From contig NC_009523.1 in the NCBI RefSeq assembly GCF_000016665.1, positions 372,001-436,000 on the forward strand: DNA of 64,000 nucleotides, given 5' to 3'. The notes below the pieces were generated by a model. That model did not search any database, was not told where the DNA came from, and saw nothing but the letters and a program-made list of their open reading frames with translations. This document shows, piece by piece, positions 4,595 through 62,122 of the stretch. The translations under genes were made by a program, and so were the position numbers. The stretch comes from Roseiflexus sp. RS-1. Lineage in GTDB: Bacteria > Chloroflexota > Chloroflexia > Chloroflexales > Roseiflexaceae. Numbering within the stretch: position 1 is the stretch's first letter; each line of letters opens with the position of its first letter.

Positions 4595-4617
4595 TGTTGA
4601 GCAAGGTTGAATGCTCT

Positions 4618-6372: not shown

Positions 6373-6387
6373 GCAGAGGAGAAGACC

Positions 6388-7631: not shown

Positions 7632-7704
7632 ATCAGGGATCATCCGCCAGGCACAGCAAAGCCAGGGGACTGCACATAACCGGCCATCTGATTCGAGGCG
7701 ATCC

Positions 7705-15499: not shown

Positions 15500-15527
15500 C
15501 AAAATAGAAGAATAAAGGAGACGTGCT

Positions 15528-16199: not shown

Positions 16200-16206
16200 G
16201 ACTTCA

Positions 16207-16734
16207 TCAAGATTCGTTTTGATTTTTGGACTGCTTTTTGCGTTTCAGCCAAATTCGGAAGTTATGCAGCCCGCAACATGTTTCCATGACCATATCCCGA
16301 AATTCGGAACAACTGAAGCGGATAATGTCGTGAATGATTCGATACCGCTTGATATCGCCGATAACATGTTCAATACGAACGCGAACGGATGAGATACGCC
16401 GGTTTTCCTCCTTTTCCTGCGGCGTGAGGGTTCCATTGCGCGGCTTCTTCTTTGGCTGCATAATCTGGACGCCAGGCAGGGTAAATCCTTGAAATCCGGC
16501 GTCTTGATAGAGAATGCTCGCGTTTGGAAGGGTGTATCCCGCTTCATCCGCAATACATTTATCGTGGACCCTTCCTTCGTAGGTGTCACTCAAAAAGTGA
16601 ATAGAGCCAAACTCATCAATGATGAGAACGTTCTTAAGCGTATGTCGTTTCTTCTTACCGCTGTAATACAACTCCCGGTCGACTTTGTCGCTTGGACGGC
16701 GAATGGGACGTTCTACGCCGTCATGGATAAAAAG
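16207..16734 (-). CDS. IS5-family transposase, second frame (DDE domain)
   Basis: Read in the -1 frame from the C6T5 run, this gives FIHDGVERPIRRPSDKVDRE, then LYYSGKKKRHTLKN, LIIDEFGSIHFLSDTYEGRVHD and VRVRIEHVIGDIKRYRIIHD. These are the DDE_Tnp_4 catalytic blocks (the D..ER…, D…G..HD and E…K signatures). The frame has no good start codon before an ATG at 16671, which would remove the first catalytic Asp. Expression as a frameshift fusion with the first frame is therefore likely, as known in IS427-type elements. Confidence 0.82.
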   Translation of the reverse strand, partial: LFIHDGVERPIRRPSDKVDRELYYSGKKKRHTLKNVLIIDEFGSIHFLSDTYEGRVHDKCIADEAGYTLPNASILYQDAGFQGFTLPGVQIMQPKKKPRNGTLTPQEKEENRRISSVRVRIEHVIGDIKRYRIIHDIIRFSCSEFRDMVMETCCGLHNFRIWLKRKKQSKNQNES

Positions 16735-17264
16735 GGGGGCGCTTTTGTCGCATGCGACGGTTCTTCACACGACGGTTCTTCACACGACGGTTCTTCACAC
16801 GACGGTTCTTCACACGACGGTTCTTCACACGACGGTTCTTCACACGACGGTTCTTCACACGACGGTTCTTCCTGCAATCGCCTCGCCAGGTCGTCGGCAG
16901 TGCGCGCAGGCAGGAGATTTTGCTGTGAAAGCGCATAGTTCAGCGCTCCGTGCAAAAGATGCACCCATTTGCTTACGTTTGATTGGCTCATTTGAAAGAG
17001 GTGTCCGTGCATCACTTGCGTTGGGTTTTGTTTTAAGTAGGTCAAAATAAAGAGCAATTTATCTTCTGTTGTCGGAAGCGGCGAGTTTGCATACGAGACG
17101 TAGCGACGACAATATCGGACGCGGCCATCAATCGTGCGACGTTTCATATACGCTTCAAATGCGGCGTGGAAGATCGGAACCAGCGCGTGGAACTCTTCAA
17201 CGGTCAGTCCGGTCATAGAGCGTAATTTCTCCGGATTTTCGATAATGGATCGATACTTACACAT
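16713..17264 (-). CDS. IS5-family transposase, first frame (HTH part)
   Basis: The product has 183 residues. The N-terminal MTGLTVEEFHALVPIFHAAF and the LLFILTYLKQNPTQVMHGHL … MSQSNVSKWVHLLHGAL segment match the helix-turn-helix (HTH_Tnp_4) of DDE transposases. The frame then runs through a 15-base tandem repeat that encodes EEPSC eight times, and ends shortly after a C6T5 run (complement of 16729-16739). The catalytic domain lies in the -1 frame that follows. The EEPSC repeat is not a normal part of the family and probably arose by slippage. Confidence 0.85.
   Translation of the reverse strand: MCKYRSIIENPEKLRSMTGLTVEEFHALVPIFHAAFEAYMKRRTIDGRVRYCRRYVSYANSPLPTTEDKLLFILTYLKQNPTQVMHGHLFQMSQSNVSKWVHLLHGALNYALSQQNLLPARTADDLARRLQEEPSCEEPSCEEPSCEEPSCEEPSCEEPSCEEPSCEEPSHATKAPPFLSMTA
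16729..16739 (-). other. Homopolymer run at the transposase frame junction
   Basis: The minus strand has six C followed by five T. Here the first transposase frame must pass to the -1 frame to continue into the DDE domain. This is a plausible programmed slip site, although it is not a textbook X XXY YYZ heptamer in the zero frame. Confidence 0.5.
16756..16871. repeat. 15-bp tandem repeat within the transposase gene
   Basis: The unit GACGGTTCTTCACAC occurs seven times without a mismatch (16756-16860), followed by an eighth partial copy (16861-16871). On the transposase strand each unit encodes EEPSC. Because the unit is a multiple of three, the number of copies can vary without breaking the frame. 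Confidence 0.97.
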
Positions 17265-17325
17265 CGTTTTTCTCCATTTTCAGATTGTACAAAAATAGTA
17301 TATCACTAAATCTTGATGATGTCTA

Positions 17326-18763
17326 ATGTATGCGATCAGTCAATTGCGCTTCCCTTCACCGGTGGGAAAAGGTGGACATGATTTTTACGACAATGGGCGC
17401 GTTACCAATCGAAGTGAGAGCTTCCGCGACCATCGCAGCCATCTTCTGTTTGTTGTCAGGATTTATGAGAAGTTATTGAAATTGACTGAGCAACACGCCT
17501 GGTATGGCATTCAGGAGTCTGTTGATGTGCCCGGTGGGTTTCGCAGGCTGGTTGGAGCGCCTGTCACGATCCATTTCCAGGAACCGCTGACGCAAGAGGT
17601 ATTTGACCATTGGATAAAGGCGACGTTTGAGCGCAGGCGGAATAAGTTCCGCCTCTGGGGTCACCCGATACGCCTGGGACCCACAAAAGTTCATGTCTAT
17701 GGCGTAGATCGCCATCTCTGGCAGCCTCTCTTTCTGGAGCTTACTACCCAGGGGCTTGTGGCGATACTGCCTCGCGGCACTTGCGGCAACACGGTACATC
17801 GGTTGGTCACCAATGTTCAGCGTTACCTCGATCCGGGGGCTACTGCTTTCATCGGCGATATTCATTACACATCTATGGTCGAAAAATCTACAGAGGCAGC
17901 AAAGAGTCAGGCCTGATGTGGTCTTGAAACGTGAGACAGATCTCAAATTCGCCCTGGTAGAATGCAAAGCGAGTTCTTTTGGTGTTGCGACAGAGCAGGC
18001 AATTCAGGCTCGCACATTTCTGCTGCTGGCAGATGAGCCGCTGGCAGAAGCGTTAGGTCTGAGTCCTGAGCAGATACAGGCTTCAATTCTCGCGTATGCC
18101 CTCCCTGCTCGTGAGAGCGCACGCCTGGAAGCCACTCTCAGTAGATTGTCGAATGAGTTGAGAAGACACCATTTACCGGCTGGCGACTCAACAATGATAG
18201 GGCTTGACATTGACTCTTGGGATGTGCGTGTAGTGTTTGACTGGAGTGGAAGTCAATTCTTTAGCATCGCTCCCGGCAGCCATCCAGTTATGCGGGTGCA
18301 GCCAGGTGACGATCCACGTCCGCTTTACTTCATTCCTTATGATCCAGACGTGCATCAGTCTCCAGAGGAAAACCTCTTTTGCAAGCGGATTCTATTCGAA
18401 AGAATTCATAGCGCGGTGCTCGCTGCCGTAGGAAGAGCCAGCTTACAAACGAATCTAACGCTGAACATTAATAATCTGCTGAATGACGCAACGTTTGGAA
18501 TGTTCGGCCTGTGGGAGAACAGAGAGTCCTTGAAGCACATGCAGAGGATGTGCAGACAACTGATAACTGCCCTGTCCAGGGCCGTCAATAAGGAAGTCAG
18601 CAATTCGTTGATCTATGAACCTCCTGAGGACTTGAAGGTAGTGCTGTCTGATCCACATCAACACCATCAGGTACTTGCTGCTATTGAGCGCTTCTCCTGT
18701 GAAAGCATGGACTTGAGGGAGCCACCCATGCCTGATCTGTTCGATGATCTGTTCGATGCATAA
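17326..18763 (+). pseudogene. Unrecognised gene, 3' part, with an internal frameshift
   Basis: This continues the 15528 gene after the IS. The first frame runs from 17326 to a stop at 17916 (…DIHYTSMVEKSTEAAKSQA). The +1 frame is open across the end of that region and on to 18763, and reads QRQQRVRPDVVLKRETDL then KFALVECKASSFG. I infer one ancestral frame broken by an indel between about 17850 and 17905, possibly at the A5 run near 17882. The pattern PDVVL…LVECKAS is reminiscent of a PD-(D/E)xK nuclease core, but I see only that segment. The joined gene would have encoded about 700 residues. Two overlapping separate genes are a less likely alternative, because the second part has no proper start. 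Confidence 0.6.
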
Positions 18764-24654: not shown

Positions 24655-25317
24655 CGTCCGCCTCTCAACAATGCAGAACCGATCGACCGCCTGATGAATG
24701 ATGTGTGCGATACGTTCTGGAAACACTGTCAGTGTACGCCGCAAAGATGAATGAGTTGTGTCATCGGTCTGCGACGCGCGCGCTGCGAGAGCGGACAGGA
24801 CGATGACCGGCGCCGACGTTCACGGTGTGTATATGTGCATCGGTATGCTCATCAGAATGCCATGGTTCCAGACAGGAGATCCGCCGATTGCTGATCGCCC
24901 CAGCAATTAGCGCGCCCGGCGTGCCTGCAATGATGATTCATAGATAACGCTACGACGCGCAGTCATAATGAATGTTCATTCACAGCGCCGTCCATCGCTG
25001 GCTTCACCACCACAGGATATTACCGCTTCTTAACACATTTTTAGCATAATCGGTGTACAATATCCGCTACCATACGTGGCACTGAAAGGATGGATCAGCG
25101 ACATTCAACATCCAGACGATGTTGACTCTGTCCGGCGACCACGCCTGCCGGTTCCAAAAGATCACCGCGCGGCGCCCGCAGTGATAGCCCGCACCTGCCG
25201 TCACTGCGAGCCTGCGGAGCGTTGCAATCTCCCTGCACAGCAGAATGCCACGTCGTGCTCGCAGTGACACACATAAGAGAATTGGCGCGTGACGGAGCGC
25301 GCGAAAGTGAGAACAGC
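24655..25317. other. Non-coding spacer between sigma factor and phoU
   Basis: No gene is supported in these 663 bases. The region holds an AT-richer stretch around 25000-25070, with promoter-like text on the plus strand (TTAACA at 25030-25035 and TACAAT at 25056-25061, but with a 20-base spacer). It also holds an inverted-repeat element at 25200-25268. Both precede phoU. Confidence 0.5.
25200..25268. repeat. Palindromic intergenic repeat (GTCACTGCGAGC type)
   Basis: GTCACTGCGAGC at 25200-25211 pairs perfectly with GCTCGCAGTGAC at 25257-25268. The interior includes GCAATCTCC. This arrangement (…TGCGAG…GCAATCTC…CTCGCA…) is known from dispersed bacterial palindromic repeats. It lies 50 bases before phoU and could form a hairpin in its leader. 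Confidence 0.7.
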
Positions 25318-25974
25318 ATGCGGGATCATTACATCAAGCAACTGCAATCGGTGCACGACGATCTCCTTCGCATGGGGAGTCGCGTCGAACATCAACTTGC
25401 CGACGCTATCAAGGCGCTGGATCGGCTCGACATCGAACTGGCGCGCGAAATTGTTGCGCGTGATCGTGAGATTGACGCTGCACGCAACGCTATCGACGAG
25501 CATGTGTTCCAGTTGATCGCCACCCAACAACCGGTCGCCACCGATCTGCGCAGTCTGCTGGCAGCAATCGCAATTGCCGGTGAACTCGAACGTGCCGCCG
25601 ACTATGCCAAGGGCATCGCCAAAAAAGTCGAGCGCAGCCTGCAAACGCCATCGATCATTGAAGCTCCGATGGAACTCCACCGCCTGGGGACGCTGGTTCA
25701 GACCATGTTGCACACCTGCCTGGACGCCTTTGTGCAACTTGATGTGACGCTGGCGCGCTCGCTCGGCGAAAAAGATCAGGAAATCGATGCCCTGGAAGAC
25801 CGTGTGATCGAAACGTTGAAGAATGCAGCGCGCCAGGATCCGCGCAAACTCGACTGTGCGCTGCTCCTGATCGATACCGCGCATGTACTCGAACGTCTTG
25901 CCGATCGCACCACCAACATAGCGGAACGGGTCATTTTCATCGCTACCGCCAGGGCGGAGGAAATTAACACATGA
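25318..25974 (+). CDS. phoU: PhoU-family phosphate-signalling regulator
   Basis: The product has 218 residues made of two three-helix PhoU repeats, each with the acidic metal-binding signature: REIDAARNAIDEH with LRSLLAAIAIAGELERAADY (first), and QEIDALEDRVIETL with LIDTAHVLERLADRTTNIAE (second). PhoU links the Pst phosphate transporter to the PhoR kinase. Here no pst or pho genes are adjacent; the next gene is acylphosphatase, with overlapping stop and start. I chose the ATG at 25318 because the PhoU similarity begins there (MRDHYIKQLQSVHDDLLRMG). Confidence 0.93.
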   Translation: MRDHYIKQLQSVHDDLLRMGSRVEHQLADAIKALDRLDIELAREIVARDREIDAARNAIDEHVFQLIATQQPVATDLRSLLAAIAIAGELERAADYAKGIAKKVERSLQTPSIIEAPMELHRLGTLVQTMLHTCLDAFVQLDVTLARSLGEKDQEIDALEDRVIETLKNAARQDPRKLDCALLLIDTAHVLERLADRTTNIAERVIFIATARAEEINT

Positions 25975-26252
25975 TGGACATGGCTCGCGCACACGTCTTC
26001 ATTTCAGGTCGCGTTCAGGGAGTGAATTTTCGTGCCAGCGCACGTAATTACGCTCGTGAAGTCGGTGTCTCCGGGTGGGTGCGCAACCTGGAGGACGGGC
26101 GCGTCGAGGCAGTCTTTGAAGGTGAACGTTCGGCGGTGCAGAAGATGGTCAGCTGGTGCTACAGCGGTCCGTCGCATGCCCGCGTCGAAGCAGTGGACGT
26201 GCGCTGGGAGAAGCCAACCGGCGAAGAACGCGGTTTTTCGATTATCTGGTGA
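25971..26252 (+). CDS. acyP: Acylphosphatase
   Basis: The product has 93 residues and hydrolyses carboxyl-phosphate bonds. The signature GRVQGVNFRASARNYARE carries the catalytic Arg, and VSGWVRNLEDGRVEAVFEG carries the catalytic Asn. The ATG overlaps the phoU stop (ATGATG), so the genes form an operon. An alternative in-frame start is 9 bases later (MARAHVF). Confidence 0.95.
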   Translation: MMDMARAHVFISGRVQGVNFRASARNYAREVGVSGWVRNLEDGRVEAVFEGERSAVQKMVSWCYSGPSHARVEAVDVRWEKPTGEERGFSIIW

Positions 26253-26273
26253 GTCGACATCCTGCGCCGATCG

Positions 26274-26640
26274 GTGGTTTATTCCTGAATAGAACACGGA
26301 TGAGCACGGATGTGACGGATCGGCACGGAAGGAGTAGACCACGGATGGGCACGGATTATAAATGAAACATCCGTGCCCATCCGCTTAATCCGTGGCAATC
26401 CGTGATTTTTATGAATAGACCACGGATGGGCACGGATGTGACGGATCAGCACGGATTAAGAAAGAAAAACATCCGTAGCAATCCGCTTAATCCGTATATA
26501 CCCGTGGTTTATTCCTAAACAGCACATGGATGAGCACGGATGCGACAGATCGGCACGGATTAAGAAAGAAAAACATCCGTGCCCATCCGCTCAATCCGTG
26601 GCAATCCGTGGTTTATTCCCAAAGAGACCACGGATTGGCC
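26274..26640. repeat. Array of degenerate palindromic repeats (CCACGGAT / ATCCGTGG)
   Basis: A block built from CCACGGATGGGCACGGAT, GGATTAAG and its complement CTTAATCCGTGGCAATCCG, each ending GTGGTTTATTC, recurs with landmarks at about 26274, 26402, 26504 and 26608 (spacing 128, 102, 104). Each unit folds on itself because its halves are complementary. It is not a CRISPR, since repeats and spacers are not distinguishable. It fills the gap between acyP and the next gene. Confidence 0.8.
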
Positions 26641-26759
26641 TGGTGCAGGAAACGCCGAACGTGCCCAGGCAAAAACCGGTCGGCAATACCATCAGGTCTC
26701 GATCACAGAATCGTAAGCGCTGCTCCCTGTCTATCCTACCATACGATCACCATTCAGGC

Positions 26760-26791
26760 GCGCCAGAAAAGGACTTTCGGGCGCTTTTTTT
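26760..26791 (+). terminator. Intrinsic terminator
   Basis: The stem GCGCC (26760-26764) pairs with GGCGC (26780-26784) and GAAA with TTTC, enclosing a loop of five bases, followed by seven T. It would end transcripts that run through the repeat array from phoU-acyP, 66 bases before the next gene. Confidence 0.8.
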
Positions 26792-26856
26792 ATTATGCGA
26801 CAGTTGCTATGCTATGCCTGTCATTCGGCTATATTCGACCCGACAGGGAGCCTGCA

Positions 26857-27699
26857 ATGAGCGAAGCGACTTCTCAACCCAACACCTACCACGCTGCAGC
26901 CGTCGGCATTCTCGACGTTCCATCCGCGAGTCGCCAGAACCTGCACCGCCGCCCGCACCTGCGCATGACGGGTCCGCTCGGCGGCGACTTTCGTCTGCCG
27001 ATCCGGGTCATGCGTGAAATTCCCGGCAGCGAACTTCTTGATCACGCGCACCACGGCGCGCGCCTGCTGATCGAAGGGCGTCTGGAGTGGAACAAGTCGT
27101 CTGACGCCGCTGGGCTGCTGCCGACGCTCATCGCCGATGCAGTGCGTCCCGTGACCCCTGACGACGAAGAGGGGTGCGATGTCCGCCTGTGTGGCGAAGT
27201 CACCGCCCCGGCGCGCATCCGGCGCCATCCGTTGCGCCCCGGCATCGCCATGGCGCATGTGACCCTTCGCGTCCAGATACCACGCACGCGCGCAGCAAGT
27301 CGCGCAGTGATCACCGAAACGGTAGGGATTCCGGTCGTTATCCCGCTCAACCATCCCGACGCGCCGGCGCTCCTGCGCCCCGGCAACCGCGTCCTTGTCG
27401 AAGGGTTGCTGGAACAGGCGCCGTTGCCCCGCAACGGACCAGAGGTCGATCAGACGCTGGCAGACCTTGACGAAACGGCGAAGCAGCGCGCAACCTGGGC
27501 GATGACACCAGAAGAAACGCGCGCAGCCGAGCGGGACTACACCCGGCGCCGCTGGGAAGCGACCCACACCGTTATCTATCGGGTCGTTGCAGGATATGTC
27601 GAGTTGTTGAACGGTGCGCCCGCCACCATCCGCGAGGCGCGCGAACTGCGCCGCGCCGAACTTCAGCGTCGCGCGCAACGGCAGCAGTCGTCGTCATAA
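26857..27699 (+). CDS. OB-fold protein resembling single-stranded DNA-binding proteins
   Basis: The product has 280 residues, starting at the ATG at 26857 with a CAGGGAG site. Three strand patterns look like SSB/OB-fold elements: HGARLLIEGRLEWN near residue 70, VRLCGEVTAPARIRRHPLRP near 110, and LRPGNRVLVEGLLEQAP near 185 ('G..V.veG.l' is the usual SSB strand). The C-terminus is a helical, Arg-rich tail ending QRRAQRQQSSS and has no DDxPF tip. I infer nucleic-acid binding; the exact role is unknown. Confidence 0.5.
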   Translation: MSEATSQPNTYHAAAVGILDVPSASRQNLHRRPHLRMTGPLGGDFRLPIRVMREIPGSELLDHAHHGARLLIEGRLEWNKSSDAAGLLPTLIADAVRPVTPDDEEGCDVRLCGEVTAPARIRRHPLRPGIAMAHVTLRVQIPRTRAASRAVITETVGIPVVIPLNHPDAPALLRPGNRVLVEGLLEQAPLPRNGPEVDQTLADLDETAKQRATWAMTPEETRAAERDYTRRRWEATHTVIYRVVAGYVELLNGAPATIREARELRRAELQRRAQRQQSSS

Positions 27700-28224
27700 A
27701 TCGTTGGTGACCGGCGGTCGGTTGTCCGGGCCGCCGAGACCAGGCCCGCCCACCAACTCCCCTCCCGTACCGGCGAGACGGTCGGCTGGCTTCGTATCAC
27801 CGGCCCGGTTGGGGCCGGCAGCGAGTTCCTCGCTGCATTGCACCCTGACAACCCCATACCATATCTGGCTTTCTGATGCGCGTTGACGCGCGATTGACGC
27901 ACACGCCTTCGGAAAGAACATCAATGGCGCGTCATGCGCCGGATTTCCTGCTTGTTCCTCTGTCGGTCACCGGTCGGTTCAGCCGCGACGCCTCGCGCGT
28001 CACTCGTATCCGCTGCGCCGCCCGGCGGCGCACCAGTCTCAGGAGGAAATCGCCCCCATACGCTTACCGTGTGGTGCGGCGCCACGACCATCACGCGGCA
28101 GCATGACGCTGCACTTATTGTCCATTTGCCCCCGCGCGGGACACACCAGCTTTCTGGAGTGTCCCGCACGGGACATACGGAACGTCGGTGTGCTCTGCGC
28201 TCCTGAATTCAAAAGGAGACAGCA
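27700..28224. other. Spacer with palindromes, no gene recognised
   Basis: The first 200 bases are GC-rich and contain complementary blocks (GGCCCGGTTGGGGCC, CGGCGAGACGG). The last part has a hairpin at 28131-28172. No frame has a supported start or a recognisable product. The minus strand includes GAAGCCAGCCGACC, a motif like the cobalamin riboswitch, but no gene follows it on that strand. Confidence 0.5.
28131..28172. repeat. Hairpin upstream of the 28225 gene
   Basis: CCCGCGCGGGACAC (28131-28144) pairs with GTGTCCCGCACGGG (28159-28172) with one mismatch and a 14-base loop. There is no T-tract on either strand, so it is a leader structure or a repeat and not a simple terminator. Confidence 0.6.
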
Positions 28225-28662
28225 ATGATCATCCACGGCGTTCCGGTGTTCCCCACTGCTTTTCCGAATCGTGTCGTTCTGGGTTACGCGGATGACACCA
28301 TCCGCATGGCAATGAATGTGCCAACGGACAGAGTGTTCTTTGAAGTGCTCTGTCACGGCTCACGGCCCAATAAGAACGGCAAAACGTATGCTGTTCCGTT
28401 TGTGACTGTACCCCTCCGGGGCGAACCGATCGATGCTCAGAAGTTGTTCGATATCATTCTCGCCTGCCGTGAGTATCGCCTGGGACAACCCGTGCGACTG
28501 CTTATGTGCTGGGTGGGATACGGTCCGGACTCGCTGGCACAGCAACTCGCAGACCTGCTGGGAACCGTTGTGCTGGCAGCAAATGAGCGCATTAACGTGA
28601 AAACGCTTGAGCCAAAAGATGGCGGCGTCTGGCTCACGTTCACCCCACGTTACTGGAAGTAA
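28225..28662 (+). CDS. Small unknown protein, polymorphic-toxin-like segment
   Basis: The product has 145 residues, with an AAAAGGAG site before the ATG. The central PVRLLMCWVGYGPDSLAQQL followed by ADLLGTVVLAANERINV resembles a segment often found near the ends of RHS/polymorphic-toxin proteins ('vrLl.C.tG…AqqLA..lg.pV.Ap'). No signal peptide or catalytic set can be named. It is followed 165 bases later by another small protein of immunity-like character. The function remains unknown. Confidence 0.55.
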   Translation: MIIHGVPVFPTAFPNRVVLGYADDTIRMAMNVPTDRVFFEVLCHGSRPNKNGKTYAVPFVTVPLRGEPIDAQKLFDIILACREYRLGQPVRLLMCWVGYGPDSLAQQLADLLGTVVLAANERINVKTLEPKDGGVWLTFTPRYWK

Positions 28663-28827
28663 TCTCAAATCCGAATGAACTGGTACAGAGACGTCACAGG
28701 AGGAGCGGTTTGCCGACCGCCCCTCCTCCTTACATTAGCAACGGTGAATTCAGGGTGCGATCACGACAATTGGTTCAGGGGGGAGATAACTGGAGCGGAC
28801 ATAGCAATCAATACTGGAGGAATATCC

Positions 28828-29310
28828 ATGTACTTCGCCGATCTCCAACCTTATACGTGGTTTACCAGCAAGCGGTCGGGATACACCGCCCTGGCGGTCG
28901 GCTGGCTCGACTCGCTGTTTCCTTACACGATTGGTCCAACACCGCCAGCATTTCAGGAGCGTCTGCGCGAGCATTGTGCATGCGGCGTCCACGCTCCGAT
29001 GCTTGGCTTCCACGAATGCGATTTTTGCGGGAAGTCTCATATCTTTCTGGAATATGGGAGTAAGAAGGTGATGACCAACAACGGTGAAATCTGGATTCTC
29101 GACGGAAACATTGTCTATGCTGCACCGGTCATGATCCACCACTACGTTACAGATCATAACTATCGACCGCCGCAGGTGTTTATTGATGCGGTTATGCGCT
29201 GCCCTCTGCCTTACGAAGCGGCATACCAGGAGATCATGCAATCGTGGGGAGAGACGACGTTCGATTATAGCCGTGATTACCCGTTCATATGTTCGATACG
29301 TACCCCATAA
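28828..29310 (+). CDS. Small unknown protein (YFADLxPY family, DUF7919-like)
   Basis: The product has 160 residues and starts at the ATG at 28828 behind GGAGGAAT. The opening MYFADLQPYTWF with VGWLDSLFPYTIGPTPPAFQ, then HECDFCGK and a C-terminal FDYSRDYPF, is a pattern I associate with small soluble proteins found singly in many bacteria. The Cys pairs suggest a metal or structural site. The longer frame from 28675 has no family resemblance in its extra part. It may form a pair with the 28225 gene. Confidence 0.6.
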   Translation: MYFADLQPYTWFTSKRSGYTALAVGWLDSLFPYTIGPTPPAFQERLREHCACGVHAPMLGFHECDFCGKSHIFLEYGSKKVMTNNGEIWILDGNIVYAAPVMIHHYVTDHNYRPPQVFIDAVMRCPLPYEAAYQEIMQSWGETTFDYSRDYPFICSIRTP

Positions 29311-29457
29311 CCAGCGTTGACATCCTCTGGTAAGCGCGGGAACACTTGTATCGGCATGCTGCCCGACCGTTTCAGGTTGGCGCTTCTGCCTGCGGATGGC
29401 GCGGGACCTGTGAGACCCGGCGTCTTGGGAGTAACTGCACTGCCGGAGGCGCCTCTG

Positions 29458-31905
29458 TTACTGCGCACGTTGCCGCCTGCGCGGAGGAGTGTTACGAAAC
29501 GGTGAACGCAGCGCTGCGCCGATCCGCCCGACGAGCAGTGCGACCAGTTCACGCCGCAATGCCTGCCAGTCTTCTTTCGGTAACTGATTGTTCGCGGTAT
29601 GCCCTGGATGGTACCGTTCGGCGACAAAAGCGCTGACGATCCGATCAATAGTGCGTTTCTGGCGGGGAATGCGTTCACCGATCAGCGCGCCATACTCATA
29701 CGGCGTCGCATCGGGTGGCGCGTGCACGCCAGCCCACCCGGACAATCGCGTCAGACGCGCATAGGCGGTTGCGGCAGGTGACAGGCCGCGCACATCCCAG
29801 TGCAACCACAGCGCTCCGGCGCCGATCAGTGCTGTCAGGAATGCCAGCGATCCGCCGATCAGCGCCGCCAGGCGCAATCGCTCCTGCATGCGCTGCGCTT
29901 CGATCTCGCGCTGCAACGCATCCGCGTCGCTGATCGCCGGACCGGTATTGCGCTCGATCATTTCACGCAGCATGGCTTCCGGATCGCTCAGCGCACCTCC
30001 CAGGCCCCCGGTTGTCTCCGGTCGTTCAGCCGCATCTGCCGGCGGAAACGCCGGACGAACCGGCACACTGGCATACGGCGCTGGCGTTGGCTCGAAGCGC
30101 TGCCAGCCATAGCCGGGGAAGTACACTTCGGGCCAGCTATGGGCGATATTTTCGTGAACCAGGTACACCCGGCGATCCGGATCGAGTTCGCCGCCAGCAT
30201 ACCCCTGGACCCAACGCGCCGGAACGCCCCCGGCGCGCAGCAGCACCACCATTGCTGAAGCAAAATCGTCGCAGTAGCCGCCCGGCGCATCGAACAGGAA
30301 CCAGTCGACCCAATCGCGGTCTTCCGGCGGCATCGGGCGCTGATCGTTGTACGGCAGGGTGCGGAGATACTCCTGGATTGCCAGCGCCTTGTCGTAAGGT
30401 GTGACCGCACCGGCATTGCGAACAATTGTTGCCGCCAGTTCGCGCACCCGTGGCGTCACCGTTTCGGGTAATTGCAGATACGACATGCGCACCCATTCCG
30501 GGTAACCGGTTCCGCTTTCGCGCAGGCTCTGCTCATCGACGGTCGAAAGATACGTGGCGACGGTGTAGGTTTGCGATGCCTCCAGCGGCGCTGCGGCGAC
30601 AACCGTCGCCGTTTCGGTGAAATTGGGCAACAACTCGCCATCTATGTCGAGATACCCGTGCTGCATCAACACCGGCAAACTGGTCGAAGCCAGCGCTCCG
30701 CCGACCATCACCAGCCCGTCGGATCGCGTTTGCGCCAGTTCAAAGGTCGTCGTCACCAGCGTCCGTCCCCGCAGTTCAGGTTGTTCAAGCACTACGCCAG
30801 GCGCCAGCGGCGTGCGCGCGTCTTCAGCAGTCGTCACTCCCAGTGCGGCGCGCGCCCGTTCACCCACTGCGTTCTGCCACATCCGACCGGTGTAGCGGTC
30901 GAACGCGGTTGCGCGCCAGTAACTGTACTCACGGGATCGCACCGTCATCACCAGCGCCGTTCCCAACTGACGGGGACCGCCAACCCGCGCATTCCGGGTC
31001 AGAAACGCACCGGTCGTACCGGGTGGCGCATTGATCGTGCTGAATGCATCCTGCCATCCCTCGCGCAACGCTGTGATCGGTGCGCGAATGGTGCGCCAGA
31101 GGCGCGCCAGGTGTTCATTGTCCGGGCGGTTGGGCAGGAAGGCAGTGACAATCGCAAGCAGAATGAAGGTGACAAACGATGCCAGCAGCATGCGCGCCGG
31201 CAGAAAGTCGGGAAACTCAACGCGCGTTGCCCGCCAGAGACGCTGGTTTGCAACAATGTGCTGGTAGACGATCAGAAGCAGGGCAGCGATGAAAAAGAGA
31301 AAGAACAAACCGGTTGGTTTGGGCCAGGCGTAGGTGTAGTTGATCAGCATGATGCTGGCATTCAACCCAACCGCGATCCAGGCGCGTTGATGGCGGAATG
31401 TCAGCCACCCGGCGGCATACCCGACACCCCAGACAATCAGCGCCAGGGTGACGACGAACAGCACAATGTCCTCGCCGCGACCACCTGCCTGAAGCGTGCG
31501 TATCCAGATGAGCGCGCGTAGCACAACTTCCGCCGCATAATCGCCCCAGGTTACCAGGCGCTGCGCCTTCGTCGATCCAAACTCAGCCGCCGCCTGCGCA
31601 CCAATCACTGGACTGATCTGACGGATAACAAACACAAGACCGGGGAGCGATGCCAGCGGATGCGCCAGCCACGCTGGCATCCATGAGACGCGGGCGAAGA
31701 TCATACCGGTAACGAGCGCCGTCAGACCGATCCCGGTCAGCATGGTGAGACCATCCGCCCAGTTGGCGACTTCGAGGCTGCGCGTCACGCTCCAGGTGAT
31801 AGTGACGGTCAGCAGAAACGGGATCACGAGCGATCCGATCTCGAGACGCGCAAACCAGGAACGCGATGGGGTCTCATTCGGAACGGTGGCAACCGGGAAA
31901 CTCAT
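29458..31905 (-). CDS. Transglutaminase-like membrane protein (TgpA type)
   Basis: The product has 815 residues. Residues 20-260 contain six or more transmembrane helices. A large extracytoplasmic domain follows, with the transglutaminase core: GGYCDDFASAMVVLLRAGGV (nucleophile Cys) and NIAHSWPEVYFPGYGWQRFE (His). A last transmembrane helix (LAALIGGSLAFLTALIGAGA) precedes a cytoplasmic DUF4129-like tail. The start at 31905 overlaps the TatD stop codon, so the pair is coupled. In some bacteria such proteins form a cluster with a MoxR ATPase and a DUF58 protein; neither is here. The substrate is unknown. Confidence 0.9.
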   Translation of the reverse strand: MSFPVATVPNETPSRSWFARLEIGSLVIPFLLTVTITWSVTRSLEVANWADGLTMLTGIGLTALVTGMIFARVSWMPAWLAHPLASLPGLVFVIRQISPVIGAQAAAEFGSTKAQRLVTWGDYAAEVVLRALIWIRTLQAGGRGEDIVLFVVTLALIVWGVGYAAGWLTFRHQRAWIAVGLNASIMLINYTYAWPKPTGLFFLFFIAALLLIVYQHIVANQRLWRATRVEFPDFLPARMLLASFVTFILLAIVTAFLPNRPDNEHLARLWRTIRAPITALREGWQDAFSTINAPPGTTGAFLTRNARVGGPRQLGTALVMTVRSREYSYWRATAFDRYTGRMWQNAVGERARAALGVTTAEDARTPLAPGVVLEQPELRGRTLVTTTFELAQTRSDGLVMVGGALASTSLPVLMQHGYLDIDGELLPNFTETATVVAAAPLEASQTYTVATYLSTVDEQSLRESGTGYPEWVRMSYLQLPETVTPRVRELAATIVRNAGAVTPYDKALAIQEYLRTLPYNDQRPMPPEDRDWVDWFLFDAPGGYCDDFASAMVVLLRAGGVPARWVQGYAGGELDPDRRVYLVHENIAHSWPEVYFPGYGWQRFEPTPAPYASVPVRPAFPPADAAERPETTGGLGGALSDPEAMLREMIERNTGPAISDADALQREIEAQRMQERLRLAALIGGSLAFLTALIGAGALWLHWDVRGLSPAATAYARLTRLSGWAGVHAPPDATPYEYGALIGERIPRQKRTIDRIVSAFVAERYHPGHTANNQLPKEDWQALRRELVALLVGRIGAALRSPFRNTPPRRRQRAQ

Positions 31906-32675
31906 AGCCCGAATATCGCTTTCGCATTGCGCCACACGGCATCAACCAGCGCATCGAGCGGCATTTCGCGCAGCACAGCAAGACGTTCGGCAATCAGACG
32001 AACATTGGCGGGTTCGTTACGCTTTCCACGCAAGGGGTGCGGCGCCAGATAGGGGCTGTCGGTTTCGGTGAGAAGCCGGTCGAGCGGGGTGCGTCGCACC
32101 ACCTCGTGCAGATCGACGGCTTTCGGGAAGGTGACCGGACCACTGAAGGAGAGAGAGAAGCCAATCTCCAGGCAGTGCTCAGCATACCTCCAGTCGCCGG
32201 AGAACGAGTGCATAACGCCGGTCAGACCACGCGCCGCATCGCGTAACACGCGGATCGTATCATCATGCGCATCGCGGCTGTGAATAACGACGGGCAATCC
32301 CAGTTCACGCGCCAGATCGAGTTGCGCCCGGAAACAGGCTTCTTGCTGAGCGGCCGGAGCTGCATTCCAGTAGTAATCCAGACCGATCTCGCCAATGGCG
32401 ACGACCTTCGGTTGCCCTGCCAGCGCACGCACCTGATCGAGCCAGTCGTCCGGCAATTCGGCCACATGGTTCGGCTGCACGCCGACAACCGCGTAGATCG
32501 GTTCGTGCTGCGCCGCAAGGGCAACCGCAGCGCGCGACGTTGCCAGGTCGTAGCCAATTTCTACGATCCGCACAACCCCGGCAGCTGCGGCGCGAGCCAG
32601 AACAGCGCCGCGATCCGCATCGAACTGAGCCAATCCAAGATGAGCATGCGTGTCGATAAAGTGTGTTGCATCCAT
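31902..32675 (-). CDS. tatD: TatD family metal-dependent hydrolase (DNase)
   Basis: The product has 257 residues. It has the metal-binding opening FIDTHAHLGLAQFD, AIGEIGLDYYW, LPVVIHSRDAHDD, GVMHSFSG and LLTETDSPYLAPHPLRGKRN, all TatD landmarks. It starts at the ATG at 32675, 10 bases behind an extended -10 box on the same strand, so the transcript is near leaderless. A longer reading to 32927 runs back through the histidine-kinase promoter and is rejected. Confidence 0.94.
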   Translation of the reverse strand: MDATHFIDTHAHLGLAQFDADRGAVLARAAAAGVVRIVEIGYDLATSRAAVALAAQHEPIYAVVGVQPNHVAELPDDWLDQVRALAGQPKVVAIGEIGLDYYWNAAPAAQQEACFRAQLDLARELGLPVVIHSRDAHDDTIRVLRDAARGLTGVMHSFSGDWRYAEHCLEIGFSLSFSGPVTFPKAVDLHEVVRRTPLDRLLTETDSPYLAPHPLRGKRNEPANVRLIAERLAVLREMPLDALVDAVWRNAKAIFGL

Positions 32676-32685
32676 CGCGTCTGGT

Positions 32686-32694
32686 ATTGTACCA
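32686..32694 (-). promoter_or_regulatory. Extended -10 promoter of tatD
   Basis: The minus strand reads TGGTACAAT, an extended -10 with one mismatch, ending 10 bases before the tatD ATG. It faces the promoter of the histidine-kinase gene only 35 bases away. Confidence 0.6.
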
Positions 32695-32728
32695 TGCAGA
32701 CGGTCGTCTTCGCCGACCGACTGAGCCG

Positions 32729-32737
32729 TGATACAAT
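32729..32737 (+). promoter_or_regulatory. Extended -10 promoter of the hybrid kinase gene
   Basis: TGATACAAT ends 6 bases before the ATG at 32744, implying leaderless translation. No ribosome-binding site is present between them. Confidence 0.6.
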
Positions 32738-32743
32738 AGCGCC

Positions 32744-33967
32744 ATGCAACACCAGGTCTGCATCCTGATCGTCGAAGATGATCCGACGATCGCCAGTCTT
32801 GTTGGGATCGTCCTGCGCGAAGCCGGCTACCGGACGTTACACGCCGACACTGCTGCCGACGCTCTTCGGCTCGCCGAAACAAACCCCTTTGACCTTGTGG
32901 TGCTGGACTGGATGCTCCCCGACACACCGGGGGTTCAGATCTGCACTGCCTTGAAAGAGCGAGCGGGACGGCGGTTTCTTCCCATTCTGATGTTGACCGC
33001 CAAAGGCGAACTCTCCGACCGGGTCACAGCGCTCGATGCCGGTGTCGATGACTATCTGAGCAAGCCATTCTATATTGAGGAACTGATGGCGCGCGTGCGG
33101 GCGCTGCTCCGCATTCGCGCAGCGGAAAACGAACGCGACGCTGCGATGGCGGCGCTCGAAGCGCAAAATGATGCACTGCGCGTTGCCAATGAGCAATTGC
33201 GAACCATGCAGGCGCAACTTGTTCAGAGCTCGAAACTCGCCGCTCTGGGTGAGATCGTTGCTGGCGTGGCGCATGAACTGAACAATCCGCTCGCGATCAT
33301 CCTCGGCAACGCCGAACTGCTATCACCGCAACACGATCCGGAGGATCAACGATCAGTCGCGCAGATCATCGAAAGCGCCAAGCGCGCCCGCCGTGTCGTT
33401 CAGAGTCTGGCAACCTTCGCCCGTCGCGGACCGATGGCAAAAGAGTGGACGTCGCCGACCGATCTGATCGAGCGCGTGCTCGATCTCAAACGGGCTGCTC
33501 TGCGATCTTCCGGCATCGCCCTCGAAGTTGTCTGTTCGTCCGATCTCCCGATGATCTGGGTCGATATTCCACAGATGCAACAGGTTCTGCTCAATCTTCT
33601 TCACAATGCTGAGTATGCTCTGGCTGGCATGCCCGCGCCGCAGGTGTGGTTGACGGTCGTGCGCGGACACGCTGAAAAACCGCCGTTGCCCCCGGCGCAA
33701 GCCGCCAGTGCTGGCGGCGCATTCGTGTGCTTCGATGTTGCCGATAACGGACCGGGCATTCCCGATCATGTCATCGAGCGATTGTTCCAGCCATTCGTCA
33801 CCACCCGCCCTCCCGGTCGGGGATCGGGACTGGGTCTGGCGATAGCATACGGCATTGTGACCGGGCATGGCGGTCAGATCCTGATCAATACGCAAGCGGC
33901 TCAAGGAACCGCTGTGCGGGTCGCACTGCCGGTCGATCCGCCGGAGAGCGTTTCGGGGCAGGAATGA
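32744..33967 (+). CDS. Response regulator-histidine kinase hybrid
   Basis: The product has 407 residues. Residues 5-120 are a receiver domain (phosphoacceptor Asp55 in VVLDWMLPD, Lys in YLSKPF). A coiled coil (120-165) follows, then the HisKA domain with His177 in AGVAHELNNPLAI, and an HATPase domain with N box LLNLLHNAEYA, G1 DNGPGIPD and G2 GRGSGLGLAIAYGI. It has no sensor or membrane segment, so it probably receives phosphate from another kinase. Its stop overlaps the start of the UDG gene, and three genes follow in tight overlap. Confidence 0.93.
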   Translation: MQHQVCILIVEDDPTIASLVGIVLREAGYRTLHADTAADALRLAETNPFDLVVLDWMLPDTPGVQICTALKERAGRRFLPILMLTAKGELSDRVTALDAGVDDYLSKPFYIEELMARVRALLRIRAAENERDAAMAALEAQNDALRVANEQLRTMQAQLVQSSKLAALGEIVAGVAHELNNPLAIILGNAELLSPQHDPEDQRSVAQIIESAKRARRVVQSLATFARRGPMAKEWTSPTDLIERVLDLKRAALRSSGIALEVVCSSDLPMIWVDIPQMQQVLLNLLHNAEYALAGMPAPQVWLTVVRGHAEKPPLPPAQAASAGGAFVCFDVADNGPGIPDHVIERLFQPFVTTRPPGRGSGLGLAIAYGIVTGHGGQILINTQAAQGTAVRVALPVDPPESVSGQE

Positions 33968-55569: not shown

Positions 55570-57510
55570 ATGCAGATAGCGGAGCAGAACGCTGCGAGCG
55601 ATGCAAGCGTATGTGCAGAACACCGGGCTGCTCGTGATGTTTTGAAGGCGCCGATCATCGCGCTGATGCTTGGTGTGCTTGCACTTGCGCCGCGTGTCAT
55701 CGGGCTTGCCGATTTTCTCACCACCGACGAAGCGTACCACTGGATCCGTTTTACCGAACGTTTCGATGCAGCAATTTCCGAGGGGCGCTGGGCTGATACC
55801 ATTTTCGTCGGGCATCCCGCCATCACGATGTTCTGGTTGGGGCGCGCAGGATTGGTGCTCGAGCGCGCTGCGCGCGATTTGGGCTGGATAGGCGCCCCTT
55901 CGATGATCGAACATCTGGCCTGGCTGCGGCTGCCGGGGGTGTTCCTGCAGGTGGTGTTTGGGGTAACCACCTGGATGGTGTTGCGTCGCCTCGTTGATCC
56001 GATGGTCGCGCTGGTTGCGGGATTCCTGTGGTCTACATCGCCATATCTGATTGCGCACGGGCGGGTGCTGCATCTCGATGCACTGCTGACGGGGTTGCTC
56101 ACACTGAGCCTGTTGCTCCTGCTGGTTTCCTTGCGGCAACAGCAGGCAGGCGCAGGCGGATGGACAGCGCTGCTCGGTTCCGGTGCGTTGACCGGACTGG
56201 CGCTCCTGACCAAAGGACCGGCGATCATTTTTTTGCCATTTGCCGGTCTGATGCTGTTCGCTCTTGCGCCTGCGAAAGACGCCTCGAACCGACGTGTTTC
56301 CGGCGTGGTGTCGGATGTATTTCGTCGCCTGAGGTATGCGATCGTGCGTTATGGCGTATGGCTGGGGGTTGCGCTCGGTGTTGCATTCGCCGGATGGCCC
56401 GCGCTGTGGGTGACGCCGGAAGCGGCACTGCAAGCCTATGTGGGTGAAATTATCTTCAACGGCGGACGTCCCAACGGCGATGGGCAGTTCTTCAACGGTC
56501 AGGCAGTTGGTGATCCTGGCGTGTGGTTCTATCCGGTCGCCAGTCTGTTCCGCACGACGTCGGTGATGTTCATTGGTTTGGTCGCTTTTGTGGTCTTTGC
56601 GGTGATCGATGGCCGCCGCTTCTTCACGCAACGCGATGCCGTCATTCCTGTCCTGATCGCTTTTGCCGCCTTCTGGACACTGGTCATGACGCTGGGTCCA
56701 AAGAAGTTCGACCGATATGTCCTTCCGATCTGGCCGGTGTTGCTCGTGCTGGCGGCAACCGGAATCGTGCGCGGGTACAATGCTGCGCGGGCATGGTGCA
56801 TCCGGCGTGCGATTGTCGTGCCCCGGGGCGGTGATTTTCTCAAACGCGCGCCTCTGGCGGGGTTGCTGATAATGGGCGCAATAGAGATCGGTCAGGTCGT
56901 CTGGTACCATCCCTACTATCTGAGTTACTACAATCCCTTGTTCGGCGGCGGTGCGGCAGCGCAGCGCATGTTTCTGATCGGATGGGGAGAGGGTATGGAT
57001 CAGGTCGGCGCATGGTTGAGTTCACGCCCTGATATCGGGTACGGACCGGTTATCTCGGCGCTCAGACCAACGTTGCAACCGTTCGTTCCGGTCGATGTTC
57101 GTGACATCACCGATCTGGGGAAACTGCCGGTCAACTATGCCGTCGTCTATCTGGAGTCGATCCAGCGCGGCGCGCATCCTGATATCTATCGCCAGTTCGA
57201 GCCGATGACTCCCATCCATACAATCACCATTCATGGCATCGAATATGCAAAGATCTACCAGTTGCCGCGCCCATACCGGCAGCCGGTCGGCGCGCGCTTC
57301 GGCGATGCAATCATGCTCCACGGCGTCTCAGTCGAATATGATCAGAACCATCTGACGGTCACGCCTTCGTGGGGGGCGCTGGCGCCTCCGCAGGGCGATT
57401 ACGTCGTATTCCTTCAGGTGATCGATGCACAGGGACAGCGGGTTGCCGGTGTGGACGTACCGCCATCCGGCGTTGGGGGGATGCCGACCGGCGCCTGGCT
57501 GCCGGGGTAG
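55570..57510 (+). CDS. GT39/PMT-like membrane glycosyltransferase, ends at an in-frame amber codon
   Basis: The visible product has 646 residues. About ten transmembrane helices are present, and the first extracytoplasmic loop carries the acidic TTDEAYHW motif of PMT/ArnT-type (GT-C) transferases that use lipid-linked sugars. The start ATG at 55570 follows GGTGGAAGG. The frame stops at TAG (57508-57510) in the C-terminal soluble domain, but remains open for 58 more codons that look like the missing end of that domain. The gene is therefore probably a recent nonsense mutant or a case of readthrough. Confidence 0.85.
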   Translation: MQIAEQNAASDASVCAEHRAARDVLKAPIIALMLGVLALAPRVIGLADFLTTDEAYHWIRFTERFDAAISEGRWADTIFVGHPAITMFWLGRAGLVLERAARDLGWIGAPSMIEHLAWLRLPGVFLQVVFGVTTWMVLRRLVDPMVALVAGFLWSTSPYLIAHGRVLHLDALLTGLLTLSLLLLLVSLRQQQAGAGGWTALLGSGALTGLALLTKGPAIIFLPFAGLMLFALAPAKDASNRRVSGVVSDVFRRLRYAIVRYGVWLGVALGVAFAGWPALWVTPEAALQAYVGEIIFNGGRPNGDGQFFNGQAVGDPGVWFYPVASLFRTTSVMFIGLVAFVVFAVIDGRRFFTQRDAVIPVLIAFAAFWTLVMTLGPKKFDRYVLPIWPVLLVLAATGIVRGYNAARAWCIRRAIVVPRGGDFLKRAPLAGLLIMGAIEIGQVVWYHPYYLSYYNPLFGGGAAAQRMFLIGWGEGMDQVGAWLSSRPDIGYGPVISALRPTLQPFVPVDVRDITDLGKLPVNYAVVYLESIQRGAHPDIYRQFEPMTPIHTITIHGIEYAKIYQLPRPYRQPVGARFGDAIMLHGVSVEYDQNHLTVTPSWGALAPPQGDYVVFLQVIDAQGQRVAGVDVPPSGVGGMPTGAWLPG

Positions 57511-57687
57511 CAGGCGGCTGTGCCGCTGCCGCTATCGCTGCCGCCCGATCTTCCGACAGGCGAGTACGAGGTTATTCTGGGATTGTACGATGCCGATAGC
57601 GGCGAACGGTTGCCTGTCAGCGGCAACTTCGATCCGGCATCCACCGCAATGCGCGCCATCCGGGTGGCCACGTTAACGTATCCGTAA
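57508..57687 (+). other. In-frame continuation of the glycosyltransferase after TAG
   Basis: Beyond the amber codon the same frame reads QAAVPLPLSLPPDLPTGEYE, VILGLYDADSGERLPVSGN and ends RVATLTYP at a TAA (57685-57687). The pattern 'lPpdlp.GeY.l.lGlYd..tGeRLp' is the usual ending of such C-terminal domains, so this tail was coding until recently. A downstream gene follows 13 bases later. Confidence 0.8.
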
Positions 57688-57700: not shown

Positions 57701-58834
57701 ATGAAAAAAGCGCTCGTCCTTTCCGGCGGCGGCGGTCGTGGCGCCTACCACGTCGGCGTGATCGAGGCGCTCGTCGAACGTGGCTGGATGCAGGATGGCG
57801 TCGGACCGGATATCATTGCCGGGACCTCGATCGGCGCGATCAATGCTGCGGCGCTGGCGTCTGGTTTGACCGTCGCACAACTGAAAGCGCGCTGGCTCGA
57901 TATGCACACCGAGGATGTGCATCGACTATCAGGCGATCTGCCAGCGGTCAGTCGACCGCTCGTCCGTTTTCTGATGCGCAGCGTCTTGACCTCAGAAGCG
58001 CACGGCGGCGCGAGTGTCGTTTTGCCGCCTGAAGAGCGCAGCATGAGTGCCCAGGGATTGCTCGAGCGCATCGGTCAGGTATTCCGCACGCGCCCATTTC
58101 GCAGTCTGCTCGATACTGCTCCCTGGCGTCACACGCTGAGTCGCTGGATGGACTTTGACCGGATCAACGCGCCGGATGCGCCTGCACTGCTGCTGACTGC
58201 GACCGATCTCCAGACCGGCGACCTGCGGGTGTTTTGCAATCGACCGCTCCGTGACCACCCGGCTGACCGGATCACTCTTGACCATCTCATGGCGTCGTCG
58301 AGCATTCCGACCGTCTATCCCTGGACCGAGATCGATGGTCGCAAGTACTGGGACGGGGCGGTGCTGGCGAATACTCCGTTAGGACCGGTGATCGATCTTG
58401 CGGCGGGCGATGATGTCGAGATTGTCGTCGTTATGATGACGCCATGGGATGTCGCGCCGGAAGCGATGCGTCAGCAGTTGCAAAGCGTGCCGGAAGACCT
58501 GGTGCAGGCATTATCGTTGACGCTGGATTGGGCGCTGCTGGCATCGTATCGCGCGGCTATCAAGATGCTGCGCGCATACAATCGGCTGGCAGAGGCGGCG
58601 CGAAAACTTGAGCGGGCTGCACAGCAAACCGGCGACCCGGCTCTGACTCTGGAAGGAAACATTCCCCGCATCATCGCCGAGCCGCTGGTCATTGCGCCAC
58701 AGCAGTTGATGCCGCTGGAATGGATTATCGATTACGAAGAGCGCAATCATCTGGCATTGTTCGAGATGGGGCGGAATGACGCCCTGCGCGCACTCGACAC
58801 GCGCCTGCTCAATCGGTTGCTCGACCAGCCATGA
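57701..58834 (+). CDS. Patatin-like phospholipase
   Basis: The product has 377 residues. The oxyanion loop is LVLSGGGGRGAYHVGVIEAL, the nucleophile elbow IIAGTSIGAINAAALASG (GxSxG), and the second catalytic residue is in KYWDGAVLANTPLGP (DG[A/G]). This is the Ser-Asp dyad of patatins, acyl hydrolases. A GGAGGA site precedes the ATG. Its end overlaps the next ATG by 4 bases. Confidence 0.93.
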   Translation: MKKALVLSGGGGRGAYHVGVIEALVERGWMQDGVGPDIIAGTSIGAINAAALASGLTVAQLKARWLDMHTEDVHRLSGDLPAVSRPLVRFLMRSVLTSEAHGGASVVLPPEERSMSAQGLLERIGQVFRTRPFRSLLDTAPWRHTLSRWMDFDRINAPDAPALLLTATDLQTGDLRVFCNRPLRDHPADRITLDHLMASSSIPTVYPWTEIDGRKYWDGAVLANTPLGPVIDLAAGDDVEIVVVMMTPWDVAPEAMRQQLQSVPEDLVQALSLTLDWALLASYRAAIKMLRAYNRLAEAARKLERAAQQTGDPALTLEGNIPRIIAEPLVIAPQQLMPLEWIIDYEERNHLALFEMGRNDALRALDTRLLNRLLDQP

Positions 58835-59691
58835 TCGATCTGCACATTCACACCAACGCAACACCTCACCACGCGACCTGGACGCCAGACACATTGATGG
58901 CAGCGGCGGTGCGCGCCGGATTGCAGGTGATCGCCGTCACCGATCACAACACCACTGCAAGTGTCCGGGCAGTGCAGGAAGCGGGTGGGCGCACCGGCAT
59001 CCACGTCATCTCCGGCGTGGAGATCGATGCCGGTTTTCCCGCAGGGCAGCGTGATGATCGGCTGCCGTTCAAACTCTGGCATGTCCTCGTATATGGCGCC
59101 GATCCGGAACATCCTTCGCTCCTGGCGTTGTGTCGCTCCGTCGATGAGCGCAACCTGGCAGATGCGGACGGGTTGCAGCGACACCTGATCGCAGCAGGAT
59201 TTCGACTGCCCGGCATCGACGCGATTGAACGTCCGCCACGTGTAGCCGACATTGGCGCGGCGCTCGGACGGGCGAACGATCTTCCCGATCGCGCGCCAGA
59301 GGACGACGATGAGAGTGCCGGGATGCGCTATATTCTGACCCGCCTGCCGGGTATGTATCGTCCCCCAGGGGTGGAGGAGATCGTCGCCGTTGCCCGCGAA
59401 ACCGGCAGTGTGGCGGTGCTGGCGCATCCCGGTCGCTCAAAGGGTGTCTACGCCATCCCGGCGACTGCTGAAGACATCGCCGTAATGGCGGAGGTCGGAT
59501 TGGATGGCATCGAAGTCTACTACCCGACTCATCGACCGGAACAGATAGCGATGTACCGTCATCTGGCGCAGCAGCACCGATTGCTCATAACCGGCGGGTC
59601 GGACTCGCACCATCCGCACCAACCGCTTGCGCGCTGGCCCGCTGCGTGGTGCCGGGCATTTCTTGAGCGTGTCGGGTGTGTTACAAACTGA
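58831..59691 (+). CDS. PHP-domain phosphoesterase
   Basis: The product has 286 residues. The metal-binding motifs are MIDLHIHTNATPHHATWTP, VIAVTDHNTTASV, VISGVEIDAGF, VAVLAHPGRSKG and ITGGSDSHHPHQPLARW. The family includes nucleoside 3',5'-bisphosphate and RNase AM-like phosphatases; the substrate is not assigned. It is translationally coupled with the patatin. Confidence 0.93.
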   Translation: MIDLHIHTNATPHHATWTPDTLMAAAVRAGLQVIAVTDHNTTASVRAVQEAGGRTGIHVISGVEIDAGFPAGQRDDRLPFKLWHVLVYGADPEHPSLLALCRSVDERNLADADGLQRHLIAAGFRLPGIDAIERPPRVADIGAALGRANDLPDRAPEDDDESAGMRYILTRLPGMYRPPGVEEIVAVARETGSVAVLAHPGRSKGVYAIPATAEDIAVMAEVGLDGIEVYYPTHRPEQIAMYRHLAQQHRLLITGGSDSHHPHQPLARWPAAWCRAFLERVGCVTN

Positions 59692-60394: not shown

Positions 60395-60531
60395 CGACGC
60401 GCATACCCTCGGGCGAATCGACAGGTTCATTGCATGCGCCCCGCAGCCGCTTGATCCCGCCAGAGCCAGGCCATGCGCGCTGATTACAGATGGCGCCACA
60501 AACTGGTACGCTCAAAGAAATGCCTGCGCGC

Positions 60532-60537
60532 TATAAT
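60532..60537 (+). promoter_or_regulatory. -10 box upstream of the HD-GYP gene
   Basis: A perfect TATAAT (within GCGCTATAATGG) lies 43 bases before the ATG at 60581. No good -35 is seen. Confidence 0.5.
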
Positions 60538-60580
60538 GGCAACCTGGAAGATATGGCATCCACCAACAAGTGAGGCGGTG

Positions 60581-62122
60581 ATGAATCAGTCCCTGTCGAC
60601 GAATGCCGATCCAGTTTCGATCCTGGTCGTCGAAGACGATCCGATGGTCAATAGTTTCTGCGCACGGTTGTTGCACATGAAAGGGTACAGTGTCAAGACC
60701 GTGTTCAACGGGCGAGAAGCGTTGACCATGCTCCAGACAAACCGGTTCGATCTGGTGCTGACCGATCTTCAGATGCCTGAGATGGGCGGTATGGAATTGC
60801 TGCGGGAGATGCGCGAACAGCATCCCGATATTGATACCATCATGTTCACCGCATATGCAACCGTGGAAACGGCGCGTGAGGCGCTGAAGCTGGGTGCATT
60901 TGATTATCTGACCAAGCCATTCAGTGTCGATGAGCTGGAACGAACGGTGCGGCGCGCCGTCGAGTGGCGGCGGGTGCGCCAGGAACGCCAGCGTCTCTCG
61001 GAAGTGGTGGCGCTGTACGAGATCAGCCAGGCATTCACCAGCACCCTCGATACTGAAACGGCAGTGAATGAGATTGTTGGTCTCCTGTGGCGGCGTTTTT
61101 CACCGGCAACGCTCTCGCTCTCACTGGTGCATCCTGACGATAACGAGCTGGAACTTCTGGCGCTGCGAGGAACTGCGTCACGTGTTGCTGTCGGCGCACG
61201 TATTCCGCTTCAATGCACACCGGGGAAAGAGAGTCTTTGCGAGGATCACCTCCGTCTTACCGGTGCTGCGGTGTCCGTCCCTTCCACGCATGCCGCGCGT
61301 TTTGTGTTGCGCAGCAACGACCGGATCGTCGGGGTGCTCGATCTGAGTCGGGCGCCTGATCAACCGGGGTTCGATCAGGATGACCGCACCTTGCTGACGA
61401 TCTGCGCGTCGCAGATCGCCGCATCGCTCGACAACAGCCGTCTCTATCGCCAGTTGAAACAGCAGAATATCGAGATGATCGCAGCGCTGGCCGCTTCGAT
61501 CGACGCGCGTGATCCGTACACTGCCGGGCATTCGATGCAGGTGATGCGTTATGCCGTGCGTCTTGGCGAAGTCATTGGTCTCGACGCTGCCCGCATCGAA
61601 GCGCTGCGCTACGGCGGGTTGCTGCACGACATCGGCAAAATCGGTGTGCCCGACGCCATCCTGCTGAAACCTGCATCCCTGTCGTCGGAGGAGATGGAAA
61701 TTATGCGCGCCCATGCGGTTATTGGCGTCGAGATCGTGCGTGGGGTGAAAGCATTGCGCCCGGTGCTGCCGGTTATCCGGCATCATCATGAGCGCATTGA
61801 TGGCGCCGGCTACCCCGATGGACTGTCCGGCGATCAGATTCCGCTCGAAGCCCGGATCATGGCAATTGCCGACGCCTACGATACGATGACCTCGGAGCGC
61901 GCCTACCGTCGCGCAATGACGCAGGACGAGGCAATCGCCGAACTGCGACGATGTCGCGGTGTGCAGTGGGATGCCGATCTGGTCGACCGATTCGTCGAGT
62001 TGCTGAAATCTGAGGCTCAGGCATTGCGCCTGCAACCGCGAGCTGCCCAGGCATCGCTCGACCAGAATGTGCTCCACGTTCCTCATCTGTTTGTGTCGCT
62101 GGGGGATCTGCACATCGACTAG
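60581..62122 (+). CDS. Response regulator with GAF and HD-GYP output (c-di-GMP phosphodiesterase)
   Basis: The product has 513 residues. It has a receiver domain 12-130 (Asp62 in VLTDLQMPEMGG, Lys in YLTKPFSVDELE), a GAF-like domain 150-290, and an HD-GYP domain 300-480 with GGLLHDIGKIGVPD (His349-Asp350) and RHHHERIDGAGYPDGL. HD-GYP domains degrade cyclic di-GMP. It starts at MNQSLSTNADPVSILVVED with GAGGCGGTG before it. Confidence 0.94.
   Translation: MNQSLSTNADPVSILVVEDDPMVNSFCARLLHMKGYSVKTVFNGREALTMLQTNRFDLVLTDLQMPEMGGMELLREMREQHPDIDTIMFTAYATVETAREALKLGAFDYLTKPFSVDELERTVRRAVEWRRVRQERQRLSEVVALYEISQAFTSTLDTETAVNEIVGLLWRRFSPATLSLSLVHPDDNELELLALRGTASRVAVGARIPLQCTPGKESLCEDHLRLTGAAVSVPSTHAARFVLRSNDRIVGVLDLSRAPDQPGFDQDDRTLLTICASQIAASLDNSRLYRQLKQQNIEMIAALAASIDARDPYTAGHSMQVMRYAVRLGEVIGLDAARIEALRYGGLLHDIGKIGVPDAILLKPASLSSEEMEIMRAHAVIGVEIVRGVKALRPVLPVIRHHHERIDGAGYPDGLSGDQIPLEARIMAIADAYDTMTSERAYRRAMTQDEAIAELRRCRGVQWDADLVDRFVELLKSEAQALRLQPRAAQASLDQNVLHVPHLFVSLGDLHID

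Follow-up and report, generated by a model that had tools for sequence, protein, structure and literature searches.

A probable young nonsense allele of a GT-C membrane glycosyltransferase gene in Roseiflexus sp. RS-1

The window analysed here, a stretch of 64,000 nucleotides from Roseiflexus sp. RS-1 (NC_009523.1, positions 372,001 to 436,000), contains a gene for a membrane glycosyltransferase, interrupted near its end by an in-frame TAG, and a gene for a patatin-like phospholipase behind it (Table 1). The glycosyltransferase gene starts with ATG at 55570 and exists in one copy in the one-contig assembly of 5,801,598 bases. Translation of 55570-57687 bore out the preliminary description of a TAG near the gene end with 58 open codons behind it: the sense codons occupy 57511-57684, the TAA that follows them lies at 57685-57687, and apart from the TAG at codon 647 the frame is free of lesions across 705 codons. 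Literature searches returned no paper on this glycosyltransferase locus.

Table 1. Features of the interrupted glycosyltransferase gene and its downstream neighbour, in window coordinates
Feature	Coordinates	Strand	Basis or remark
GT-C membrane glycosyltransferase, open part (646 residues)	55570..57507	+	PMT_2/PMT family; translation, Pfam, structure model
In-frame TAG, codon 647, from ancestral CAG (Gln 647)	57508..57510	+	Sense codon in 30/30 homologues
58 cut-off codons and ancestral stop TAA; remaining beta-sandwich strands	57511..57687	+	Translation, homologue alignment, model
Patatin-like phospholipase	57701..58834	+	Own AGGAGG 7 bases before ATG; intact in window and G001

The protein matches the Pfam families PMT_2 (7.8e-11, 42.9 bits with a cut-off of 26.1) and PMT (3e-6, 27.4 bits with a cut-off of 22.7), and the model of its read-through form (pLDDT 88.7, pTM 0.85) has the architecture of a GT-C membrane protein with a beta domain at its C-terminal end. 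Among PDB structures, this model is best matched by ArnT, 5f15 (Foldseek E 8e-9), at a low identity of 15%, and the GT-C assignment is one by fold and domain. ArnT is a lipid A sugar transferase, placed in GT83 by CAZy. The earlier label of a GT39-type enzyme agrees with the two Pfam matches above their cut-offs and is otherwise loose, the nearest solved fold being that of a GT-C enzyme, ArnT.

In the model, the TAG divides the C-terminal beta domain midway, between the strand 624-630 and the strand 648-650, so that the last strands of the domain (648-650, 653-656, 664-674, 683-685, 689-691 and 696-704) are lost, while the open part takes in the first half of the beta-sandwich. The invariant residues D53 and E54 are both upstream of the TAG and therefore kept. 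From this model, we infer a 646-residue product with the membrane catalytic body whole and the beta-sandwich cut mid-way, which would probably be unstable or impaired, perhaps inactive, and which may still work. Re-initiation at a candidate GTG at 57520 was also considered; its product would be a fragment of 55 residues that lacks the membrane part.

The open run of 58 codons is by itself not unusual, being common in the GC-rich sequence here: at least 58 open codons stand behind the stop in 13 of the 48 long open reading frames of the window and in 353 of 1707 ORF stops. The tail exceeds chance because homologues at 30 other loci have C-termini to which the residues behind the TAG can be aligned; together with their structured appearance in the model, this agrees with the earlier proposal that they belong to the normal end of the protein. 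The gene at 60473-62122 served as a control, with a TAG at 62120-62122 and 86 open codons behind it. In G005 and G003, the close orthologues of this gene match no more than the query residues 1-99 and 1-98, respectively, and stop short of the TAG at query residue 107, so this open run is a matter of chance; this second candidate for a TAG extension was thereby ruled out, the 86 codons being unconserved in both genomes.

Homologues ending at the TAG, which would have refuted the preliminary description, were looked for and none was found: each of the 30 homologues outside the window for which a codon aligns there has a sense codon opposite codon 647 and runs on into the tail, with matches ending before residue 640 excluded, the second alignment of L024 (ending at residue 645) uncounted, and one of the 30, L007, reaching its contig end within the tail. 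The codon is CAG in 15 of the 30 and CAA, CGG, AGA, AGG, GAG, GAA, ACG or GAT in the others. It is CAG in all four genomes of the same genus with an orthologue (G001, G002, G003 and G005), among which G002 is Roseiflexus SKYG45 and G003 is Roseiflexus SKYB12. No sequence of Roseiflexus castenholzii was among the hits. The TAG is therefore a derived CAG>TAG transition. A sequencing or assembly error, with the strain really having CAG at 57508, would equally leave one base unlike every homologue in a frame that is otherwise clean; it is considered unlikely, given that the whole chromosome was assembled as one contig and that the sister genome has lost the gene, which makes tolerance of a real lesion plausible.

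A search of 158 genomes of the class gave 129 family matches with E at most 1e-60, and four of these have an in-frame stop, namely those in the window, G011, G069 and G068; the position of the stop is fixed for the window and G011 only, and no other family member is known with a stop at 647. The G011 case (L119, on contig C8) comes from another genome of the family and is a distantly related paralogue, with its own in-frame TAG opposite the window residue 96 and a frame that aligns on both sides. Adjacent same-strand runs of glycosyltransferase paralogues were observed in two genomes of the same order, with four matches on contig C74 of G051 (24751-32948) and five on contig C168 of G079 (3054-18583).

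The genome encodes RF1, the anticodon CTA is found in none of its 48 tRNA genes, all of them typed, and TAG terminates seven of the 48 long (greedy) open reading frames of the window, the glycosyltransferase included. Reassignment of the amber codon was ruled out by these three observations. They bear also on programmed or regulated UAG readthrough that would produce two forms, one shorter and one longer. In its favour are the open, homologue-like tail, though a very recent stop predicts the same, and the many bacterial in-frame stops with dN/dS below 1 described in the survey of Belinky et al. 2021 (PMC7918605). However, RF1 is present, no UAG-reading tRNA was found among the tRNA genes of the genome, the TAG is conserved in no relative (0 of 30), the sister included, and the same survey (PMC7918605) deems most such stops short-lived and not functional recoding, so that readthrough is regarded as highly improbable. 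Thus, of the origins suggested in the preliminary description, the fresh nonsense mutation is upheld by the single CAG>TAG change in a conserved Gln codon, the otherwise intact frame and the purifying selection on the lineage, while occasional readthrough into two protein forms finds no specific support, with no UAG-reading tRNA found, RF1 present and the stop absent even from the sister. Basal leakage at the TAG 57508-57510 is possible. That a leaky UAG acts as a dosage switch, lowering a sugar transferase which this Roseiflexus branch is losing, seems a very long shot; if it were true, the allele would stand partway from a functional gene to a dead one instead of being dead already.

Selection on the gene was assessed by a branch codon model on six sequences (the window, G001, G005, G002, G003 and G009), with nucleotide-homologous codons compared and interrupted codons masked; between the window and its sister G001, 374 of the 646 codons before the TAG were comparable, the rest being deleted or masked. 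In the branch model, omega was 0.048 on the window branch and 1.46 on the branch of G001, with 0.145 for the remainder. For the window branch omega = 1 was rejected (2dlnL 16.1, p 6e-5), whereas the G001 branch did not differ from 1 (p 0.73) and differed from the background (p 4e-5). By parsimony, the derived changes before the TAG were nine nonsynonymous and 12 synonymous in the window against 24 and seven in G001 (Fisher p 0.018), and the nonsynonymous share of the window, 9/21, lies below the neutral share of 0.69 (p 0.011); a further 45 substitutions before the TAG (19 nonsynonymous and 26 synonymous) and one stop-creating difference could not be polarised, the outgroups being far. This shows purifying selection on the window lineage in the past and neutral evolution of the gene in G001. 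Since constraint on the gene covered most of the period after the two lineages separated, the TAG is probably recent.

The purifying selection upstream of the TAG is also what would be expected if the 646-residue form were a working protein, its upstream part remaining selected after the tail had become dispensable, and two of the four polarised tail changes of the window lineage are nonsynonymous. However, past selection is equally expected with a recent stop, the stop cuts a beta-sandwich that the homologues keep, and the tail counts (two nonsynonymous and two synonymous changes plus the stop; omega = 1, p 0.43) are too small to decide, relaxed and constrained evolution being indistinguishable in so short a tail. 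Such a functional truncation is accordingly held to be improbable.

The sister genome G001 is Roseiflexus sp. 629F.7, with a contig coverage of 358.8. Five indels interrupt its glycosyltransferase gene (deletions of 798, 4 and 6 bases; insertions of 4 and 1 bases). In addition, codons 16 and 601 are stops, but codon 647 is CAG. Judged by this decay, the gene is disposable in the nearest known relative, which lends credibility to a genuine nonsense mutation in the window. Two genes downstream, the PHP-domain gene (58831-59691 in the window, 5045-5960 in L032, the G001 locus) is open in the window; in G001 it has three frame-shifting indels of 5, 1 and 1 bases, and the patatin gene between is intact, so the G001 lineage seems to be losing two cluster genes while patatin stays. 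The window segment 56859-58818 is 92-97% identical to L032, except for one 150-base block at 88.7%, with flanking blocks at 77-93%. This high-identity tract of about 2 kb, spanning the 3' part of the glycosyltransferase gene and the patatin gene, may be a recombined one.

In G005, G002 and G003, the glycosyltransferase stop overlaps the patatin start (ATGA), while the window and G001 have 13 bases from the ancestral stop to the ATG of patatin, the AGGAGG being located between the two. With the early TAG, translation ends some 190 bases before patatin is reached, and some polarity is possible. However, patatin has its own ribosome-binding site and is probably little affected; it is intact in G001 despite the wrecked gene before it.

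In-frame stops in bacteria are described as widespread, mostly short-lived and persisting in a polymorphism-like manner by Belinky et al. 2021 (PMC7918605). The present case resembles those treated there by a single sense-to-stop change in a gene with dN/dS below 1, and the worked example given there is also a TAG/CAG one, as at codon 647; it differs in that the survey kept stops common to at least two species, whereas the TAG 647 is found in one genome only. With nonsense-type bacterial pseudogenes it shares one truncating lesion in an ancestral frame otherwise intact, the sister showing advanced decay, and is unlike them in its complete catalytic membrane part and in a product that may still work. 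With ArnT/PMT-like GT-C glycosyltransferases it shares the GT-C fold together with the PMT_2 and PMT matches. The case in the window is most likely an ordinary young nonsense allele, a sequence error being less likely.

A recent nonsense allele of a GT-C (PMT_2-type) glycosyltransferase gene that is dispensable in this Roseiflexus branch is, therefore, considered the likely explanation. A recent C>T change at 57508 would have converted the conserved Gln codon CAG into TAG in a gene otherwise intact, ribosomes would stop there with RF1 and yield a 646-residue protein, and this product, probably unstable or impaired, would mark an early stage in the loss of a gene that has become dispensable in the branch. 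An annotation should label the gene a probable young nonsense allele and give 57687 as its ancestral end. The window and G001 together would then form a small worked case in which one glycosyltransferase is being lost in parallel, at an early stage in the former and an advanced one in the latter.
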